A program made the position numbers and the translations under genes. Positions 16,679 to 62,845 of a stretch of DNA of 64,000 nt are shown here, piece after piece. The stretch spans positions 1,709,292 to 1,773,291 of the forward strand of contig NC_002932.3 of NCBI RefSeq assembly GCF_000006985.1. Direction: 5' to 3'. The notes beneath the pieces were generated by a model. The model was not told where the DNA came from. It saw only the letters and a program-made list of their open reading frames with translations, and made no database searches. How positions within the stretch are numbered: position 1 is the stretch's first letter; each line of letters begins with the position of its first letter. This DNA is from Chlorobaculum tepidum TLS. GTDB lineage: Bacteria > Bacteroidota > Chlorobiia > Chlorobiales > Chlorobiaceae.

Positions 16679-18393
16679 AAACCTTTCTCAGGCTGACCGG
16701 CCTGACCCGCCCCTTTGCCTGGTGGATGCTCCTCGCCGCGCTGATCGGCTTCGCCACCATCGGCAGCGGCATCGGTTTGCTGATGGCCTCGGCGTGGCTC
16801 ATCACCACCGCCGCCCTGATGCCCGCGCTTTCGGCGCTCCAGATCGGCATCACCGGCGTGCGCTTCTTCGGCATCTCGCGCGGCGTCATTCGCTACGCCG
16901 AACGGCTCATTTCACACAACACCACGTTCAGGATTCTCACCCGCCTGCGCGTCTGGTTCTACGACGCCGTCGAGCCGCTCGCCCCGGCCCGCCTCGCCGC
17001 ATACCGCAGCGCCGATCTCTTGAAGCGGATCGTCGATGACATCCAGAGCCTCGAAAACATCTACGCCCGCGTGCTCGCCCCGCCCATCACCGCGGCGCTC
17101 ATCACGCTGCTCATGTGGTTCGTCGTCGGCCACTGGTCAACCGCCGCCGCCGAAGGGGTGCTTACGAGCCAGCTCATCGCAGGTATCGCCGTGCCGCTGT
17201 TGACCGCACGGCTCGCCGCCGGAACGGCTCGCGGCATCACGGCGCTCCAGGGCGAACAGCAGGTGCTCGCGGTCGATATGGTACAGGGCATGAGCGAACT
17301 GCGCGTCTTTGGCATGGTGGGCGACTACACCGAAAAGCTGCGCGATGCCGAAGTAAAAAAGCTCGCGTTGCAGAAGTGCGCCGCATTCATCGAGGGGCTG
17401 CACGAATCGCTGACCGGACTGGCAATGAACGGCGCGGTGATCTGGATTCTCTACTCGATGCTGCCGATGGTGCGAACCGGCGCCGTCAGCACCATCACAC
17501 TCGCCTCGGTGGTGTTCGGCGTCATGGCCTCGTTCGAGGCGTTCTTGCCGCTCACCGGCTCGGTGCAGAACATCGAGGCCGATGTCCGCGCGGGCGAACG
17601 CCTCTTTGAGATCATCGACGCAAAGCCGGAAGTGGTTCCGCCAGCCAAACCGGAACCTTTCCCGAAATCAACCGGCATCGAGGTCAAAAACCTCGCCTTC
17701 ACCTACCCCGGCTCAGATCGTCCAGCGCTCGACGGCGTCTCGTTCAGCGTTCCGCAGGGCGGGCGGACCGCGATTGTCGGGCCGAGCGGCGCGGGCAAAT
17801 CAACCATCACCTCGCTCATGGTGCGCTTCTGGAACCCCACGCAAGGAGAAATTTCGATTGGCGGGCAAACCATCGACAAGCTCGATCCCGAAGAGCTGCG
17901 CCGCAACATCGCCATGGTCTCGCAACGAACGTACCTCTTCGGCCAGACCATCCGCGAAAACCTCCTCCTCGCCGCACCTGACGCGACGGATGAGCGGCTC
18001 CGCCAAGCCCTCACGCTGGCGGGACTCGACAGCCTGCAAAGCCGCCTCGACGACTGGGTCGGCCAACACGGCATGAACCTCAGCGGCGGCGAACAGCAGC
18101 GCCTCGCCATCGCGCGGATGATCTTGCAGGACGCTCCAATCATCGTGCTCGACGAAGCAACCGCCAACCTCGACGCCATCACCGAACAGGCGCTGCTCGA
18201 CACGCTCGACACCACCAGCCAAGGAAAAACCGTGCTCGCCATCACCCACCGCCTGCACCGCATGGAGCGCTACGACGAAATTGTGGTGCTCTACGAAGGC
18301 AGGACTATTGAGCGAGGAAGCCACGAAGAACTGCTGAAAAGCGATGGCTTTTACGCGGGGATGTGGAAGTTGCAACACCAGCGGAAAGCATGA
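16675..18393 (+). CDS. cydC: Thiol reductant ABC exporter subunit CydC
   Basis: 572 residues, the half-transporter partner of CydD. Transmembrane domain about 15-300; the ATPase domain has GPSGAGKST, LSGGEQQRLAIARM, VLDEATANLD and ITHRLHRME. The N-terminal region LARFARYGERLVSHN-like element appears as VIRYAERLISHN, typical of CydC. Translation is coupled to cydD through the ATGA overlap. It ends convergently with the lipocalin gene. Confidence 0.94.
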   Translation: MKTFLRLTGLTRPFAWWMLLAALIGFATIGSGIGLLMASAWLITTAALMPALSALQIGITGVRFFGISRGVIRYAERLISHNTTFRILTRLRVWFYDAVEPLAPARLAAYRSADLLKRIVDDIQSLENIYARVLAPPITAALITLLMWFVVGHWSTAAAEGVLTSQLIAGIAVPLLTARLAAGTARGITALQGEQQVLAVDMVQGMSELRVFGMVGDYTEKLRDAEVKKLALQKCAAFIEGLHESLTGLAMNGAVIWILYSMLPMVRTGAVSTITLASVVFGVMASFEAFLPLTGSVQNIEADVRAGERLFEIIDAKPEVVPPAKPEPFPKSTGIEVKNLAFTYPGSDRPALDGVSFSVPQGGRTAIVGPSGAGKSTITSLMVRFWNPTQGEISIGGQTIDKLDPEELRRNIAMVSQRTYLFGQTIRENLLLAAPDATDERLRQALTLAGLDSLQSRLDDWVGQHGMNLSGGEQQRLAIARMILQDAPIIVLDEATANLDAITEQALLDTLDTTSQGKTVLAITHRLHRMERYDEIVVLYEGRTIERGSHEELLKSDGFYAGMWKLQHQRKA

Positions 18394-18399
18394 GAAGAA

Positions 18400-18437
18400 G
18401 ATGTTGTGGACATTATTGCAATGATTTCCACAACATC
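18400..18437. terminator. Bidirectional hairpin between cydC and the lipocalin gene
   Basis: Perfect 11-bp stem GATGTTGTGGA/TCCACAACATC with a 16-base loop that itself contains the palindrome ATTGCAAT, sitting in the 64-base gap between two convergent genes. No T tract on either side. Confidence 0.6.
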
Positions 18438-18457
18438 CATGCAACCCACCGAGTCAA

Positions 18458-18976
18458 CTACTGCAGGGTACGCATAACCTTGGCCGTGTCGAAGCCCTGC
18501 GACTTTGCCTTTTCGAGGAGCTTTTCGTAGAGCGCGTCGTCGATCTGCGGGGTTCTGGCTAAAATCCAGAAGTAGTCGCGGCTGGAGGCTGTGACCATTG
18601 CCCACGAGTAGTTTTCGCGGTCAAGGGCGAAGACATTGTACGGACCGTAGAAGGGGCCGAAAAATGAAACCTTCAGCGCTCCAACGTTGGGACTTCCGGC
18701 GAATTTGGCTTTGCCTTTGGCGGTTTTCCACTTCTTTTTGTCGGGATAGTAGCCCTTGTTGAGCACCTGAACCTTGCCGTCGTCGCGCAGGGTGTAGGTG
18801 GCCGAAACATGGTCGGAGCCGCGCTCAAACCAGTTGTCGATTCGGGCAATTTCGTACCAAGTGCCAAGATAGCGGTCGAGCTTGAAGTTATCCACCGCCA
18901 CAATCCCCTCCGGCGCACTCGCGCAACCGGCAAGCGCAGCCATCCAAAGCAGCATAGGCAAAAAGAGTTTTTTCAT
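18458..18976 (-). CDS. Outer-membrane lipocalin lipoprotein (Blc-like)
   Basis: 172 residues with a lipoprotein signal peptide and lipobox (LAGC, Cys18), so lipid-anchored, probably in the outer membrane. The lipocalin motif YLGTWYEIARIDNWFERG follows (family G-x-W), then YYPDKKKW, the bacterial Blc middle region (FFGPFYGPYNVFALD) and SSRDYFWILARTPQI near the end. Blc proteins bind lysophospholipids or fatty acids and help repair membranes under stress. Well separated from cydC by a hairpin; 65 bases from the CDF gene, and possibly co-transcribed with it. Confidence 0.93.
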   Translation of the reverse strand: MKKLFLPMLLWMAALAGCASAPEGIVAVDNFKLDRYLGTWYEIARIDNWFERGSDHVSATYTLRDDGKVQVLNKGYYPDKKKWKTAKGKAKFAGSPNVGALKVSFFGPFYGPYNVFALDRENYSWAMVTASSRDYFWILARTPQIDDALYEKLLEKAKSQGFDTAKVMRTLQ

Positions 18977-20996: not shown

Positions 20997-21220
20997 GGTT
21001 CTTCGCAGATTATCGTAGGTGGCATGAAGGATGCTCACATGACCACCCTGATAAACAAGTTTAACAGTTCAGTCAAAGACATGTATAACTCATCATATGA
21101 CAAAGAGTTACGGTGATTTATCCTTTGGCCCGACACTCTTTGCAGAGTGCATTCGTTTTGGCCGTGCCTCAGTCGATTGACCTATATTCACCATTTACCC
21201 ACGATATTCTGCGAAGAGCC
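20997..21220. mobile_element. Miniature inverted-repeat element, copy 1 (ISL3-like ends)
   Basis: 224 bases bounded by imperfect inverted repeats of about 25 bases. The left end is GGTTCTTCGCAGATTATCGT; the right end read inwards is GGCTCTTCGCAGAATATCGT. Most of its length matches the element at 60929-61153. It has no transposase. Ends beginning GGcTCTTC are typical of the ISL3 family, so it may be mobilised in trans by such an element. Inside is a small hairpin CACTCT-TTGC-AGAGTG. No target duplication is visible. Confidence 0.8.
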
Positions 21221-21254
21221 ATTTTATAGATAATTTTCGGTCAATCAATGAAGA

Positions 21255-21330
21255 ACCCCGCCGCAAGCAGCGGGGTATCTTGAAGGCAATACTTGAATAC
21301 TTTACGCCGTAAACGGCGGGGTATTTACCC
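21255..21330. repeat. Pair of GC hairpins, possible IS200/IS605-type end remnant
   Basis: Two nearby hairpins: ACCCCGC...GCGGGGT (loop CGCAAGCA) and CGCCGT-AA-ACGGCG followed by GGGGTATTTACCC. Both share the CGGGGTAT tail, so they look like two versions of one motif. Subterminal hairpins of this type occur at IS200/IS605 ends, but no transposase is present. Nothing convincing follows until the terminator at 21479; a 35-codon frame at 21370-21477 has no recognisable features. Confidence 0.4.
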
Positions 21331-21478
21331 TTAGGGAATAATGGCAGCCACTAACACTGTATAGACAAAATGGGCGAGATAGTAGTAACTTTAAAGGCGG
21401 TAGTAGCCCGCTTTAATTTTTCACGGTTTGATACGTTTGAAGCTCGCAATCGCCCACATTTGCATATACTTGTCTGAA

Positions 21479-31945: not shown

Positions 31946-33690
31946 ACAGCAAGCAGATCACCACGCTCTGGTGCGCGGTCATCGTCGAGGAACTGATCCG
32001 GCAGGAGGCCGGATTTTTCTGTATCTCCCCCGGCTCACGCTCGACGCCGCTGACCCTTGCCGTAGCCTCGAATCCGAAAGCGCGATTCAGGATGTTCCCC
32101 GACGAGCGCTCGGCGGGATTCTACGCGCTTGGGTACGCAAGAGCGACCGGAATGCCCGCCGTGCTCGTCTGCACCTCCGGCACCGCTGTGGCCAACTACT
32201 TCCCCGCCGTCGTCGAAGCATCGGCGGACGCGCAGCCAATGCTCGTGCTCTCTGCTGACCGCCCCTTCGAGTTGCTCGAATGCGGCGCGAACCAGGCCAT
32301 CCGCCAGCAGAATATTTTCGGAAGCTACACACGCTGGAGCTTCGAGCTGCCCGAACCCGGCATTGCGACGCCGCTCGCCTCGCTGCTTTCGACGGTGGAT
32401 CACGCCGTCAGAAAAAGCCTCAGCCTCCCCGCAGGCCCGGTGCATCTGAACCTGCCGTTCCGCGAACCGCTCGAACCCGAAGCGCCCGATCCCGGTCATC
32501 CGTGGGCCGCGCCGCTCGAAACGTGGCAGGCCTCCGGCGAACCGTGGAGCCGCTTCGCGCGTCCGCTGCACGAACCAAGCGCAGAGAGTATCGTGACGCT
32601 GCGGGAGTTACTTGCACAGGCTGAACGGCCGCTGTTCGTGGCCGGAAGCATGTCGAACGCGGCGGATGGCGAGGCAGTAGCGGCGCTAGCCGAATCGCTC
32701 GGTGTGCCGCTCTTCGCTGATCTCACCTCCGGCATCCGGCTTTCATCGGACTGCACGCCCTGGCAGCTCGCCTTCCAGAATGAAGCCTTCGTCGAGCGCT
32801 TTCAGCCCGATGTAGTAATCCATTTCGGTGGCCATGTCATCGGCAAGCAGCCCGCCATGGCATTGCGGAAACAGCCGCCCCTGCATTACGTGGTTGTCCG
32901 TGAGCATCCCGGACGCTTCGACCCCGACCACAACGTCACGCTGACTCTCGAAGCTTCGCCCGCAGCCGTCGCTTCGGCGCTCGAAGGGTGCCGAGAGCCG
33001 GTGCCGGGCATCAGATGCCGCGACGCATTTTCAGCAGCCTCCGGTATAATCGATAAAATGGCCTGCGTGCCGGAGCTTGCAGTCAGCGAAATCTCCGCGC
33101 CGCGCATCGTTTCATCGCTCGCCGGAGACGGGCACGCGCTCTTCGTCGCAAACAGTATGCCCGCGCGAGACATGGATCTGTACGCCGCGCCAGTAGCGCA
33201 GAAACCATTGCAGGTGGCGCTCAACCGGGGGGTCAGCGGCATCGACGGCATCATCTCGACCGCCGCCGGATTCTCGGCGGGCCTCGGCAAACCGACGACG
33301 CTGCTCATCGGCGACATCTCCTTCCTGCACGACCTGAACGCCCTCTGCCTGCTCAACCACCCGTGGAACCCGCTCATCGTCATCGTGCTAAACAACCACG
33401 GCGGCAGCATTTTCTCCTTCCTGCCCATCGCTTCGCAGACCGACCGGCTCGACGAGTGCTTTGCCACACCGCAGAACTTCAGCATCGAATCCGCCGCCCG
33501 CACCTTCGGCATCGACTACGCCTGCCCGGAGACAAACGGCGATTTCACACAGCTCTACGCAGAAGCGCTCACAACAAAAAAAAGCCTCATCATCGAAATC
33601 AGAAGCGACCGGGAGAAAAACCTCCTTCTGCACCGCTCGCTCAAGGCGCGACTCGACCCGGTTTTTGAAAAAGCTGACTGCTCCCGGTAA
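31942..33690 (+). CDS. menD: SEPHCHC synthase (MenD)
   Basis: 582 residues, a thiamine-diphosphate enzyme that adds a succinic semialdehyde unit from 2-oxoglutarate to isochorismate. Motifs: SPGSRSTPLTLAVASNP at the N-terminus, DERSAGFYALGYARATG with the catalytic Glu, TSGTAVANYFPAVVEA, and the TPP/Mg2+ loop GDISFLHDLNAL...VLNNHGGSIFSFLP in the C-terminal domain. Coupled to menF by overlap. After its stop the plus-strand men genes pause for 2.1 kb. Confidence 0.96.
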   Translation: MNSKQITTLWCAVIVEELIRQEAGFFCISPGSRSTPLTLAVASNPKARFRMFPDERSAGFYALGYARATGMPAVLVCTSGTAVANYFPAVVEASADAQPMLVLSADRPFELLECGANQAIRQQNIFGSYTRWSFELPEPGIATPLASLLSTVDHAVRKSLSLPAGPVHLNLPFREPLEPEAPDPGHPWAAPLETWQASGEPWSRFARPLHEPSAESIVTLRELLAQAERPLFVAGSMSNAADGEAVAALAESLGVPLFADLTSGIRLSSDCTPWQLAFQNEAFVERFQPDVVIHFGGHVIGKQPAMALRKQPPLHYVVVREHPGRFDPDHNVTLTLEASPAAVASALEGCREPVPGIRCRDAFSAASGIIDKMACVPELAVSEISAPRIVSSLAGDGHALFVANSMPARDMDLYAAPVAQKPLQVALNRGVSGIDGIISTAAGFSAGLGKPTTLLIGDISFLHDLNALCLLNHPWNPLIVIVLNNHGGSIFSFLPIASQTDRLDECFATPQNFSIESAARTFGIDYACPETNGDFTQLYAEALTTKKSLIIEIRSDREKNLLLHRSLKARLDPVFEKADCSR

Positions 33691-33840
33691 AACGGTCATT
33701 CAGAGCATATCAGCGAAAAACACTTCAGCGTAGCGAAACCAGGCGACGGATCGCCCTCAAAGCCCATGCGGGCGAGGTAGGACGGGAGATGGAAATTGGC
33801 GGCTGTCTTTGGCAGCTCACAGTAATTCAAAGCAATAAGA

Positions 33841-34359
33841 TCAAGCTGAACAGGGCCACGCCGCGTCCGGCTTGTGCCGCCATATCCAGGCGATGTAGTC
33901 GGTCATGGGTGGATCGACGCCAAGCTCGCGAAGCCGGGCGGCGATCTGGCCGCGATGGTAGGCGCTGTGCTCTGGAACCTGCACAAGCGCGTCAGCGAGA
34001 GAGTGTTCGGCCACCTCGAAGCCGAGCTTTTTGGTGGCCGTCTTCGACCACGGCAATTTGATGACGCGCTCCAGCTCCACCGGAGTCAGCGCGGCGAGCA
34101 AGCGCATCGACCCAACGTGAACATCCTGCGAGAAATTGGACAAAGCCTTGACATCGAGATCGTTCGTTTCCTGAGGATTGATCGGGCTGTTTCGCAGAAC
34201 ATCGAGAAAAATCTTCTGCACCACATGCAAGTGGCGCAGCTTGCCAAGGATGTAGCCATCCCGTTCAGCCTCAGGGCTGGCGATAATCGTAGTCAAAACC
34301 AGCGCATCCGCCCAGGCCATGTGGCGGAACTGATCGATGAGCAGAGATAGGGCGTCCAT
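33841..34359 (-). CDS. DinB-like four-helix protein
   Basis: 172 residues. The N-terminal LLIDQFRHMAWADALVLTTI and the C-terminal VPEHSAYHRGQIAARLRELG fit the DinB/YfiT helical-bundle superfamily, whose three His ligands bind a divalent metal (His near 13, and H-x-x-x-H at about 133 and 137). Members can be thiol-S-transferases; the reaction here is unknown. It lies on the opposite strand to the men genes. The preceding 150-base spacer (33691-33840) holds no clear feature. Confidence 0.8.
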   Translation of the reverse strand: MDALSLLIDQFRHMAWADALVLTTIIASPEAERDGYILGKLRHLHVVQKIFLDVLRNSPINPQETNDLDVKALSNFSQDVHVGSMRLLAALTPVELERVIKLPWSKTATKKLGFEVAEHSLADALVQVPEHSAYHRGQIAARLRELGVDPPMTDYIAWIWRHKPDAAWPCSA

Positions 34360-43878: not shown

Positions 43879-45261
43879 ATGATCGGCACTCCTATCCTTC
43901 CAGAAATTCGTGAGCTGATCGAACAGAGAAACTTCAGCGCCCTGCAACGCCTCTTCGACGACTGGCTCCCGGTTGACCTGGCCGAACTGATTTCCGATCT
44001 GCCTGAAAACGAGCAGGCAATTCTCTTCCGGCTGCTTCCCAAAGACGTGGCTACCGAAACCTTCGAGTACCTCGACTTCGATGCCCAGCAAAACCTGCTC
44101 AACGCCCTGACGCAAAAGGATGTCACCCACATCCTCAACAGCATGTCGGCTGACGACCGCACGGCGCTGCTCGAAGAGCTGCCCGGCCCGGTGGCGCAGG
44201 AGCTGATCAAGCTGCTTTCATTCAAAGAGTTCAAGATCGCCAAGACGCTGCTCGCCTACGCCGAGGATAGCGTCGGGCGCCTCATGTCGCCGGACTTCCT
44301 GAGCGTCAAAAAGGACTGGGAAATCGGCAAGGTGCTTGAATACATCCGCACCTACGGCCACGAAAGCGAAACGCTGAACGTCATCTACGTAGTGGACGAG
44401 CACGGCAAACTCGTCGGCGAAATGCTCGCCCGCGACCTCTTGCTTTCGGCGCTTGACAAAAAGGTCGAGGAGATCATCGACGAGGACAAGCTCATCACCC
44501 TCACGGCCACGCAGGATCAGAAAGACGCGCTCGAGACCTTCAAGCGCTACGACCGGGTCGCCTTGCCGGTCGTCGATTCCAACGGCTACCTAATCGGCAT
44601 CGTCACGGTTGACGACATGCTCGACGTGGCCGAAGAGGAGGAAACTGAAAACATCCAGAAGTTCGGCGGTATCGAGGCCCTCGAAGAGCCGTACATCGAC
44701 GTGCCGCTACTGGAACTGATAAAAAAACGGGCCGGATGGCTGGTGATTCTGTTTCTCAGTGAAATGCTGACGGCCTCGGCCATGTCCTATTTCGAGGGTG
44801 AACTGGCCAAGGCAATCGTGCTGGCCACCTTCATTCCGCTCGTGATATCGAGCGGCGGCAACTCCGGTTCGCAAGCCGCCACGCTCATCATCCGCTCGCT
44901 CTCGCTCGGCGAGATCAGTATACACGACTGGTGGAAAGTCATGCGGCGAGAAATTCTTTCAGGACTTATGCTTGGCAGCATCCTCGGCACGATTGGCATC
45001 ATCAGGGTCGTGCTTTGGGCCACCATTCTCGGGCATCTGACAAAGGTCTGGGTACTCATTGGGATTACCGTCGGCTGCTCACTGGTGGGTATCGTGCTCT
45101 GGGGCACCCTGACCGGATCGATGCTGCCCCTGCTGCTCAAACGCCTCGGCTTCGATCCGGCCACCTCGTCGGCCCCGTTCGTCGCTACGCTGGTAGACGT
45201 CACCGGCATCGTCATCTACTTCACAGTCGCCTCGCTGGTGCTCAAAGGCGTGCTGCTGTGA
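43879..45261 (+). CDS. mgtE: Magnesium transporter MgtE
   Basis: 460 residues. In order: a cytosolic MgtE N-domain superhelix (about 1-130, repeated L-x-x-L-x-x-D-x-A-x-x-L), two CBS domains that sense Mg2+ (about 135-260; [39 protein letters not shown]), a plug helix, and five membrane helices (about 285-460) with [20 protein letters not shown], the conserved channel segment. Mg2+ binding to the N/CBS part closes the pore. The 191-base spacer after it (45262-45452) shows nothing clear. Confidence 0.97.
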
Positions 45262-45452
45262 GCTGGTGAGCTGCCTCCTACCCCCGTAAATCAGGTTGAC
45301 ACTTCGGAAGAATGACAGCAAGTGGCCAAATGAAGGCCATGAGCTTCTAAAAGAGCCTCAGCCCAGACAGACATTGGATCATCTGTTTGCGGAATTTGCA
45401 GTTCCGCGCATAATCCCGAAAAAGCTGTAAGTTATCCCCAAAACGACAGCGT

Positions 45453-46553
45453 ATGAGCTCACCACAACACGTCATTATCGGCCTTTCGGGCGGCGTCGAT
45501 TCAGCGGTAGCGGCTTGCCTGCTCATCAAGCAAGGCTACCACGTGACCGGGCTGAACATCCGCGTGCTCGATACGCCGGAGGATACTCCCACGCTGGCGC
45601 CGTCGGCAATGCGGATCAGTGACTCGGAGGAGTTCGATTTTCCCGTGTTCACGCTGAACCTGAGCGCGAAGTTCGCCCGCGACGTCGTCGGTTACTTTCA
45701 TGATGACTATCTCGCCGGACGGACGCCGAATCCTTGCATGGTGTGCAACAAGGCGATCAAGTGGTTCGGGCTGTTCGAGGCGATGCGGCTGCTCAGAGCC
45801 GATCTGGTGGCGACCGGCCACTACGCCCGCACGGAACTGCGTGACGCCGTGACGCGCCTTCTCAAGGGCGTCGATCCGGAGAAGGATCAAAGCTATTTTC
45901 TCTGGATGCTGACTCAGGCGGAGCTTGCCAAAACGCTGTTTCCGCTTGGCGGTTATACGAAAGCTGAGGTGCGAGAGCTAGCCCGGTCGTTCGGCGTGCA
46001 TGCGGCGGAAAAAAAGGAGAGTCAGGAGATCTGCTTCGTGCCGCACGACGATTATTGCGCGTATCTGGCGAACGCGATTCCCGGCCTCGAAGCGCGGGTG
46101 GCAGGCGGGGAGATTGTCGATCAGGCGGGTAAGGTGATCGGCCATCACCGCGGCTATCCGTTCTACACCATCGGCCAGCGCCGCGGCCTCGGCGTCTCGA
46201 CCGGCGAGCCGGTGTATGTGACGGAGATCGACGCCGAACACAACCGCATTCATGTTGGCAGTAAAGCTGATCTCGAATGCCGCAGCCTCATCGCCTCCGG
46301 CATGAACTGGATCGGCATCGCCACGCCAGACAAGTCTTTCGAAGCCGAAGCGCGAATCCGCTACCGCGACCGGCAGAGCGCCTGCATGATCGAGCCAATG
46401 GACGATAACCGGGCATGGGTGAGCTTCCGCGAGCCGAAGCAGGGCGTTGCCTGCGGGCAGGCGGTGGTCTTCTACGACGGCGACGAAGTGCTCGGCGGCG
46501 GGATTATCGCCAAGGTGAATCCTGAAGCGCCGCCTCAGAAGATCTTGGGCTAA
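45453..46553 (+). CDS. mnmA: tRNA-specific 2-thiouridylase
   Basis: 366 residues. It transfers sulfur to U34 of tRNA-Lys, -Glu and -Gln. The PP-loop is VIIGLSGGVDSAVAACLL; the nucleophile cysteine is in TPNPCMVCN (about residue 96-99) and the persulfide cysteine in SQEICFVP (about 193). FYTIGQRRGLGV and a C-terminal beta-barrel follow. Full length for the family. Confidence 0.97.
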   Translation: MSSPQHVIIGLSGGVDSAVAACLLIKQGYHVTGLNIRVLDTPEDTPTLAPSAMRISDSEEFDFPVFTLNLSAKFARDVVGYFHDDYLAGRTPNPCMVCNKAIKWFGLFEAMRLLRADLVATGHYARTELRDAVTRLLKGVDPEKDQSYFLWMLTQAELAKTLFPLGGYTKAEVRELARSFGVHAAEKKESQEICFVPHDDYCAYLANAIPGLEARVAGGEIVDQAGKVIGHHRGYPFYTIGQRRGLGVSTGEPVYVTEIDAEHNRIHVGSKADLECRSLIASGMNWIGIATPDKSFEAEARIRYRDRQSACMIEPMDDNRAWVSFREPKQGVACGQAVVFYDGDEVLGGGIIAKVNPEAPPQKILG

Positions 46554-59928: not shown

Positions 59929-60728
59929 CCGCCATGACGCACTGGATCAGCGAACCGCTCGACGCGCTTCTCGAAAAAGCGGTCGCCTTCATCACCGACA
60001 CGGCCTACCGCGCGGTCGCCGAGCGTGGCCGCTTCACCTTGGTGCTGTCGGGCGGCAACACCCCGCGAGCGCTACACCAGAAACTTGCGAGAGGCATCCG
60101 CGAAGAGCGCTACCTCGAACTCGGCTACAAACTGCCTGAAGAGGCGCGCCGCTGCACCCGCAATCCGGATGTGATCGTGCCGCCCTGGACGCACACGCTG
60201 CTCTTCCAGGGCGACGAGCGCTACCTGCCGCCGAGCCACCCCGACAGCAACTACGGCATGGCCCGCCAGACGCTCATCCGCAACGTCTGCCTCAAACCGT
60301 CGAACATCCACCGGATGCCGACCGAATCGGGCGACCCGGAAGCAGACGCCCAGCGCTACGAAATGCTGTTGAAAGGATTGTTCCACAAACGCAACAGTAA
60401 CAACGCCCCACCATCGTTCGACCTCATCCTCCTCGGCCTCGGCGACGACGGCCACACCGCCTCGCTGATGCCTGATGATAAAGGAGCGCTCGAAGAAAAA
60501 GAGCGCTGGGTCATCGCCGTCAACGCCCCCAACGGCAAACCACCGGGGATAAGACTGACGCTGACGCTACCGGTCATCAACGAAGCAAGAGCGGTGCTCT
60601 TCCTCGTCCCGCCATCGCGCCACGAGCTTGCCCGCTCAATCAGCAACGGAGAAAGGCCGGAGCTGCCTGCGGGAATGGTGAAGCCGAGAAGTGGAGATGT
60701 GTGGTGGTTTGTGGAAGGGGTTGTTTGA
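59925..60728 (+). CDS. pgl: 6-phosphogluconolactonase
   Basis: 267 residues of the Pgl/glucosamine-6-phosphate isomerase fold: [47 protein letters not shown] and the signature [15 protein letters not shown]. It opens 6-phosphogluconolactone to 6-phosphogluconate, the step between Zwf and Gnd encoded just downstream on the other strand. Start 59925 (overlapping tkt) or the second ATG at 59934. Confidence 0.95.
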
Positions 60729-60819
60729 TTGATGACGAATGCATTGAATCAGAAAAAAACCCTTTACTGATGAGCAGGAAATCGGCTATTACTGACTCAA
60801 ATGAAACATTTTAGCCCTT

Positions 60820-61311
60820 ATGAAAGCCACTCCATCGGATAAGCAAAATAACGATCCAAAGGAAAGACTGGAAAGAAAGATCTTTCAGCAGATTGCACTA
60901 TTCGGAAGCGCATTTTTATTAAAAAAATGGTTCTTCGCAGAATTTCGTGGGTGGCATTAAGGATGCTCACATGACCATCCCTGATGAACAAGTTTAACAG
61001 TTCGGTCAAAGGCATTTATAAGTCATCATATGATAAAGCGTTAAGGTGATTTATCCTTTGACCGGACACTCTTTGCAGAGTGCATTCGTTTTGGCCGTGC
61101 CTCAGTCGATTGACCCATATTCACCATTTACCCACGATATTCTGCGAAGAACCCATTTTCAGATGAGGAGTTGGAGGGTGCCTTAAGGAAAAGCGCCATT
61201 AATCTATGGAAATCTGGCCTTGACAGCTACTATAAACGAGTTACAGTAGCAACACGTAGAGGTTACCGAGGATTGGGATACCAAGTTGATCAAAAAGATT
61301 CTTCTTTGTAA
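60820..61311 (+). pseudogene. Small gene split by a miniature transposon
   Basis: The 5' part from ATG 60820 reads MKATPSDKQNNDPKERLERK and IFQQIALFGSAFLLKK, then enters the element and stops at 60960. The 3' part after the element (from 61154) reads FSDEELEGALRKSAINLWKS, GLDSYYKRVTVATRRGYRGL, GYQVDQKDSSL and ends at 61311. Removing exactly 60929-61153 (225 bases) rejoins the two in one frame of 88 codons. Family not recognised; no database name offered. The spacer on both sides (60729-60819 and 61312-61405) holds nothing else clear. Confidence 0.7.
60929..61153. mobile_element. Miniature inverted-repeat element, copy 2 (ISL3-like ends)
   Basis: 225 bases with terminal inverted repeats. Left GGTTCTTCGCAGAATTTCGT; right, read inwards, GGTTCTTCGCAGAATATCGT, continuing GGGT. 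It matches the copy at 20997-21220 over most of its length, including the CACTCTTTGCAGAGTG hairpin, but with substitutions and small indels, so the copies are not recent twins. No transposase inside. It sits within the split gene at 60820-61311. Confidence 0.85.
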
Positions 61312-61405
61312 TGTTTTACTCTGAGCCTCTTGTCATCTATCCCCGACACAGAAAGTGCGGACACGCAGACCAGCCTCTACAGAATTTTCACCCCCTCCAC
61401 CAATC

Positions 61406-62845
61406 TCACCCGTAAATCCTCGACGATTCCGGCCCCCAGCTATGAACTGGATATTGCTCCGGAACCTGGCCGTCGATTGAATTTTTCAGGCTGTCGATAA
61501 TTTCCCACGAGTACTCCACGCTGTCTTTGCGGATGAAGTTCATCTGGTTGCCCTCGATGGCATCGAGCAGGAGGCGGTGGTACGGCGTAAGACCTTCGCC
61601 CTGAAAAGTATCGCGGTAGTCGAACTTCATGAACACCGGATCGGTAATCATCTGCTCGCCGGGGCGCTTGGCGCCAAAGCGGATGGCAACCGTTTCGTCG
61701 GGCTGGATGCCGAGTACCACCTGGTTCGGCGTACAGCACGCCGCCCCGCCGGATGGGCCGTAATAATTCTGCGGCGGGCAGCGGAAGGTGATGACGATTT
61801 CGGTCACGCGCTTGGCGAGATTCTTGCCCGCTTTCATGTAGAACGGCACACCCGACCAACGCCAGTTATCCACGTGAAACTTCACGGCAGCGAAGGTCTC
61901 GACTTTCGAGTCCGGCGCGACATTTTTCTCGTTGCGGTACCCCTCGTATTGGCCGATCACCACCGACTCCCGAACCGAATCAGGAGTGAAGTGCCGCACC
62001 GAACGCAGAACTTTCGCTTTCTCGTCGCGGATCGAATCGGCGCTGAGATCGACCGGCGGCTCCATCGCGATGGCCGTGAGCAACTGCAAGCCGTGGTTCT
62101 GGATGATGTCACGCAAAAGTCCCGACTCCTCGTAGTACGCGCCGCGATCCCGGATGCCGAAATCCTCGGCGATGGTGATCTGCACCTGCGCGATATACTG
62201 CCGGTTCCAGAGCGGCTCGAAAATACCGTTCGAGAAGCGGAACACCATGATGTTCTGCACCGGCTCCTTGCCGAGGTAGTGGTCGATGCGATAGACCTGG
62301 TTCTCCTCGAACACCTCGTTGATAACGCGGTTCAGCTCGCGGGCGCTTTCGAGATCGTGGCCGTAGGGCTTTTCGGCGATGAGCTTGCGCCACCCGGTGC
62401 ACGACTGTTCACGTCCACCCAGCCCGGCCTTGCCGAGATTGCGCACCACGGCAGGCGCAAGGCTCGGCGGTATCGACAGATAGAACATCAGGTTGCGGCA
62501 AGTGCTCCCTCCCACTTTTTCCTCGCGCATGATCTCGTCGCGCAGCACTTCGTAGCTCGCCGGATCGTCCAGATCGACGCGGGCATAAAAGAGGCGGAGG
62601 CAGAAGGCGTCGAGCCGCGCGGCGTCACCGGCGGCTTCGGGCGAGTGCTCCAGCAGGCGACTGCGGACGAACGCGCGGAACTCCTCGTGGCTTTGCTCCT
62701 GCCGCCCGACGCCAATCAGCCGGAAGCTCTCAGGCATGTGCCCCCACCGCGCGAGCTGGAAAATCGACGGAAAAAGCTTGCGCGAAGCCAGGTCGCTGCT
62801 CGCGCCGAAGATGACGATGGTGAAGTTGTCGAGAGTGCCGCTCAT
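61406..62845 (-). CDS. zwf: Glucose-6-phosphate 1-dehydrogenase
   Basis: 479 residues. It oxidises glucose-6-phosphate with NADP+. Nucleotide loop [18 protein letters not shown] (G-A-S-x-D-L-A), [14 protein letters not shown], the catalytic [19 protein letters not shown] (Asp-His pair), and C-terminal [20 protein letters not shown]. Coupled to gnd by a 4-base overlap, downstream of it. With pgl and gnd it completes the oxidative pentose phosphate branch. Confidence 0.96.

Follow-up and report, generated by a model that had tools for sequence, protein, structure and literature searches.

Within the window (the whole stretch of DNA analyzed here, 64,000 nucleotides long), a miniature transposable element lies in a variable slot between the convergent genes pgl and zwf, with a short open frame piece abutting it on either side (Table 1). 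The two genes are convergent neighbors in most of the sister genomes examined (numbered G001 onwards below), at a spacing of ∼20 to 150 bp in four more distant congeners and 0.3 to 2.9 kb in closer ones. Genes found in the slot encode a PIN and a DUF2971-like protein in G009, a DUF2971-like protein in G020 (the DUF2971 match falls just under the cut-off), a 260-aa zinc-ribbon protein in G002, an 830-aa protein in G001 and an IS200-like transposase in G011. Slot content resembling either frame piece was found in none of the sister genomes compared. The left piece starts 91 bp past the pgl stop, close to the slot-gene starts in G002, G009 and G020, and the right piece ends ∼27 bp short of the conserved block next to zwf, as do slot genes; because these start and end positions match those of slot genes, the two pieces are a plausible head and tail of such a gene.

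Two further features of the slot were recorded in sister genomes. A transposase gene of the IS200-like (Y1_Tnp) type, surrounded by repeats, is present in G011, G020 and G008 (L097, L091 and L092, respectively), while in the pgl-zwf slot of G016 only the repeats of the IS200-like unit remain. The last 37 to 55 codons of zwf recur ∼1 kb beyond zwf in G020, G008 and G015 (L091, L092 and L090, respectively), a pattern that would arise if DNA entering the slot had carried a zwf end of its own.

Table 1. Coordinates of features in the window (positions as in the 64,000-nucleotide stretch)
Feature	Positions	Strand	Remarks
pgl (6-phosphogluconolactonase), left border gene	59934..60728	+	Synteny by tblastn; name from gene order
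Variable slot between convergent pgl and zwf	60729..61405	.	Content differs in each sister species
Left frame piece, 36 codons from ATG; probable slot-gene head, or chance	60820..60928	+	Start near slot-gene starts in G002, G009, G020
Miniature element, ISL3-related MITE, 225 bp	60929..61153	+	10 near-full and 2 partial genome copies; inverted ends; ends in common with resident 1363-bp IS
Left terminal inverted repeat, 24 bp	60929..60952	+	
Right terminal inverted repeat, 24 bp	61130..61153	-	
Right frame piece, 52 codons and stop; probable slot-gene tail, or chance	61154..61311	+	End ∼27 bp before conserved zwf-side block
zwf-side block, repeat-like	61338..61405	.	73-80% conserved in sister species
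zwf (glucose-6-phosphate dehydrogenase), right border gene	61406..62845	-	
Second element copy of the window (L010), also a deletion junction as judged from sister genomes	20997..21220	+	G002 and G016 share sequence past left junction

Element family, autonomous partner and target duplications

The 225-bp element starts with GGTTCTTCGC and ends with GCGAAGAACC, and its inverted repeat can be extended to 60923-60952 / 61130-61159 (90% over 30 nt). Both the inverted repeat and the presence of sister copies in the genome establish that the 225-base element with inverted ends, as delimited by the sequence-only reading, is real. The genome searched (Chlorobaculum-type, single contig, 2,154,946 bases) holds 10 near-full copies including the focal one (92 to 98% identity) and 2 partial copies. 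Identical 27-nt ends occur at four further places, three of which are the ends of copies of a 1363-bp insertion sequence (IS). The IS copy in L023 (1868-3130) encodes a 420-aa protein with DDE_Tnp_ISL3, HTH and zinc-ribbon domains (PF01610, E = 3e-75; also PF13542 and PF14690), and related elements are carried by several sister species. The element itself is short and has no coding capacity, and no Rfam match was found. It is a non-autonomous ISL3-related MITE, for which the resident 1363-bp IS presumably supplies the ISL3 transposase, and the ISL3-type affiliation proposed earlier is upheld by these shared ends.

Abutting octamers at the focal copy (AAAAAAAT and CATTTTCA) mismatch at 7 of 8 positions, confirming that an 8-bp target duplication is missing there. 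The sequence-only reading regarded this as an oddity of the focal copy, but it is not local: in an octamer comparison, none of the 11 both-ended element copies of this genome had an 8-bp duplication. In sister species, MITEs of G001, G015 and G020 have perfect 8-bp duplications (L040, GAGATATT; L054, AAAATTCA; L049, GAAATAGA), as do the full IS copies L016, L017 and L060. No clear duplication borders the IS copy L021; decay or some other form of loss can thus remove duplications, which counts against reading their absence as a mark of deletion. In G015, the copy bordered by the duplication AAAATTCA breaks up a frame whose length is 408 aa once the element and one repeat are left out, and this is what a true gene split by the element family looks like. 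In common with ISL3-derived MITEs, the elements described here are short and noncoding, with 24-bp ends like those of a resident ISL3 IS and 8-bp duplications at sister copies; they differ in lacking a duplication at every both-ended copy of this genome and in the apparent location of the comparable copies at deletion junctions. Membership of the class rests on the ends and not on the duplication, because the absent duplication is read as loss by deletion. As a separate observation, a related element in G012 (L042) lies in a region orthologous to L011 of this genome, near a truncated copy here, and the L042/L011 element is ∼200 to 300 bases from a conserved block resembling a tRNA gene.

The joined 88-codon frame

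Joining position 60928 to 61154 brings 36 and 52 codons together into 88 stop-free codons, from the ATG at 60820 to a stop ending at 61311. The open frame reported earlier was thus reproduced, though its value as evidence was overstated. Dinucleotide shuffling of the flanks gave a junction-spanning frame of at least 88 codons in 3% of cases, and removal of the element at other copies gave spanning frames of at least this length in 3 of 10 (114 codons at L004, 93 at L005 and 89 at L008). All three cross junctions where sisters carry kilobases of DNA and, on that comparison, are false joins; an open joined frame around the element is therefore no evidence for a split gene. GC content by codon position in the focal frame (0.45/0.38/0.34) is unlike the codons of neighboring genes and would suit an AT-rich acquired gene, and the codon score of frame 0 is no better than that of frame 1. 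The search for a homologue that had been proposed beforehand returned nothing above chance for the joined frame or its halves in 60 relatives, ∼300 genomes of the phylum (weak matches only, E 0.03 to 0.09, whose translation yielded nothing usable), 85,000 genomes, plasmids, phages and viral contigs, and no family match in Pfam, NCBIfam or PHROGs.

These results bear on the claim that the element had split one 88-codon gene that exact removal restores, with a duplication never made or since drifted. The stop-free join, rarely equaled in shuffled flanks, agrees with such an insertion, as do a codon-position GC that suits an acquired gene, a start and stop placed like those of sister slot genes, and the demonstrated ability of the family to split a gene in G015. 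The proposal is nevertheless not supported, and we regard it as distinctly unlikely: nothing searched contains a homologue of the joined frame, the duplication seen at the true split in G015 is absent, the similar spanning frames of L004, L005 and L008 were judged above to be false joins, and the sister pgl-zwf intervals hold other genes or nothing. It is also possible, if doubtful, that both pieces are noncoding and that slot DNA simply took up the element, a joined frame then being expected when flanks are joined. The frequency of spanning frames at the other copies, the indifferent codon score and the lack of any family match are consistent with chance, whereas the scarcity of such frames among shuffles and the placement of the frame in the slot, resembling that of sister slot genes, argue against it. 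Rather than a gene cleanly split in two, the 88-codon frame probably represents remnants of a lost gene, or chance.

Element sites in sister genomes

Flanks of the other element copies were searched in 12 sister genomes; L003, L006, L007 and L025, with one or both flanks unmatched in sisters, fall outside the site comparison. In sisters, the flanks of L002, L004, L005, L008, L009 and L010 keep their order but are more widely spaced, at ∼0.7 to 2.6 kb from each other. This intervening DNA is mostly one AT-rich gene, not the same in each species; Schlafen AlbA_2 at L010 and 8xMP at L005 are among the matches. At the best sites the break coincides with the element junction or lies only a few bases from it, namely at L008 versus G011 (both sides), L004 versus G002, L005 versus G009 and G012, and on the left of L010. 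At L005, this genome matches G005 and G009 up to the last base before the element, and 206 bp past the junction are common to those two sisters (89% identity). At L010, 43 bp past the junction are common to G002 and G016, and the interval occupied here by the element (224 bp) plus 256 bp measures 1824 bp in G002. In G002 the L004 site is filled by a 431-aa gene, the final codons of which can still be read in the left flank here; the first bases of the element, AGCTCTTC, occur in G002 at the junction point as a short shared stretch. Alternatively, those final codons could be flank read by an inserted gene, and no independent homologue of the 431-aa gene was found.

As a control, 14 element-free junctions of the window were treated in the same way, of which 13 were judged. 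Variable content was found at 7/7 element sites and 3/13 controls (Fisher P = 0.0015; 6/6 without the focal site, P = 0.003), the control set being small, drawn from one window and scored by eye from the match table. The element-free intergenic junctions at 18393-18458, 33690-33841 and 45261-45453 are further variable slots, where some sisters carry additional DNA (0.6 kb to several kb). To the right of the second element copy, at 21240-21340, is a GC-rich repeat that occurs many times in G012.

Probable deletion junctions at the element sites

Loss of ancestral DNA is shown, at the level of sister alignments, for two other copies (L005 and L010), with support at L004, and a reading as deletion junctions is well supported by sequence comparison for several other copies. 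For the focal copy, we infer the same loss history by analogy because no sister carries related slot sequence. We favor, with a probability of about 0.6, the reading that the focal copy marks a deletion junction like the others and that the frame pieces are remains of a lost slot gene, or chance. Under this reading, DNA adjoining an element copy or between element copies would have been lost. In most cases this would have been one AT-rich accessory gene occupying a variable intergenic slot, and the loss would have left the element ends directly at the deletion endpoints, with no target duplication. The 36- and 52-codon pieces would then most likely be the head and tail of a longer lost slot gene (or of two), or chance, and their in-frame rejoining would be incidental. 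The sequence-only reading had suggested a small deletion or drift at the junction; deletion was the correct lead, although the losses appear to be large (∼kilobase) rather than small. Because losses at comparable sites are about a kilobase, exact removal of the element there would not recreate the ancestral sequence.

Some observations run against the deletion reading at the focal site. Few shuffles (3%) yield a frame as long as the 88 codons, and the two pieces have their start and stop where slot genes begin and finish; a genuine small gene at this site therefore retains some probability. Exact agreement of L008 with G011 on both sides could mean a shared insertion point. Together with the very short intergenic space at L008, this agreement would fit independent use of the same insertion points with no loss, the ancestral site having been empty, the element arriving here and genes elsewhere. 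We consider that history unlikely: among the matches listed, no sister has an empty version of an element site, two sisters share sequence missing here at both L005 and L010, and the expected duplication is absent. There is also a slim chance that insertion of the element was itself coupled to removal of ∼1 kb of target, replacing accessory genes in one step without an 8-bp duplication; were this true, the copies would be gene-removal scars across the genome.

Two routes could produce deletion junctions of this kind, namely recombination between two directly repeated element copies, or a transposase-made adjacent deletion beginning at an element end, which for ISL3 is putative. The first has a precedent in Pseudomonas aeruginosa, where ISL3 copies recombined, the intervening DNA was deleted and one copy was left with unmatched 8-bp repeats (PMC7643977). 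That case (CLJ-ISL3) resembles the sites described here in its single copy, its unmatched octamers and the loss of DNA between two sites, but it involves a full-length IS and a proposed two-copy ancestor, whereas here the element is 225 bp and the losses ∼0.7 to 2.6 kb; no two-copy ancestor of the element sites was seen in the sister comparison. For the second route, passages of a review describe adjacent deletions made by intramolecular transposition for IS1, IS26 and Tn3, and of 0.5 to 4.5 kb for ISPve1 (PMC9330008). Those deletions, like the ones proposed here, start exactly at the element end and are of similar size; they are transposase-made. The passages in question describe no such deletions for ISL3, and the route is putative here. 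Exchange between distant element copies was rejected, as the flanks of each comparable copy are still neighbors in sisters. No Ku homologue was found, making classical end joining unlikely.

A rejoinable frame around a miniature transposon is easily mistaken for a split gene, and the sister comparison shows that deletion junctions can produce such frames as artifacts. Should the pattern hold (absence of a duplication throughout, and variable accessory-gene slots at all comparable copies), a missing duplication would be a marker for finding such gene losses, and accessory genes of green sulfur bacteria, some of them defense-like, may be lost by way of small ISL3 elements.
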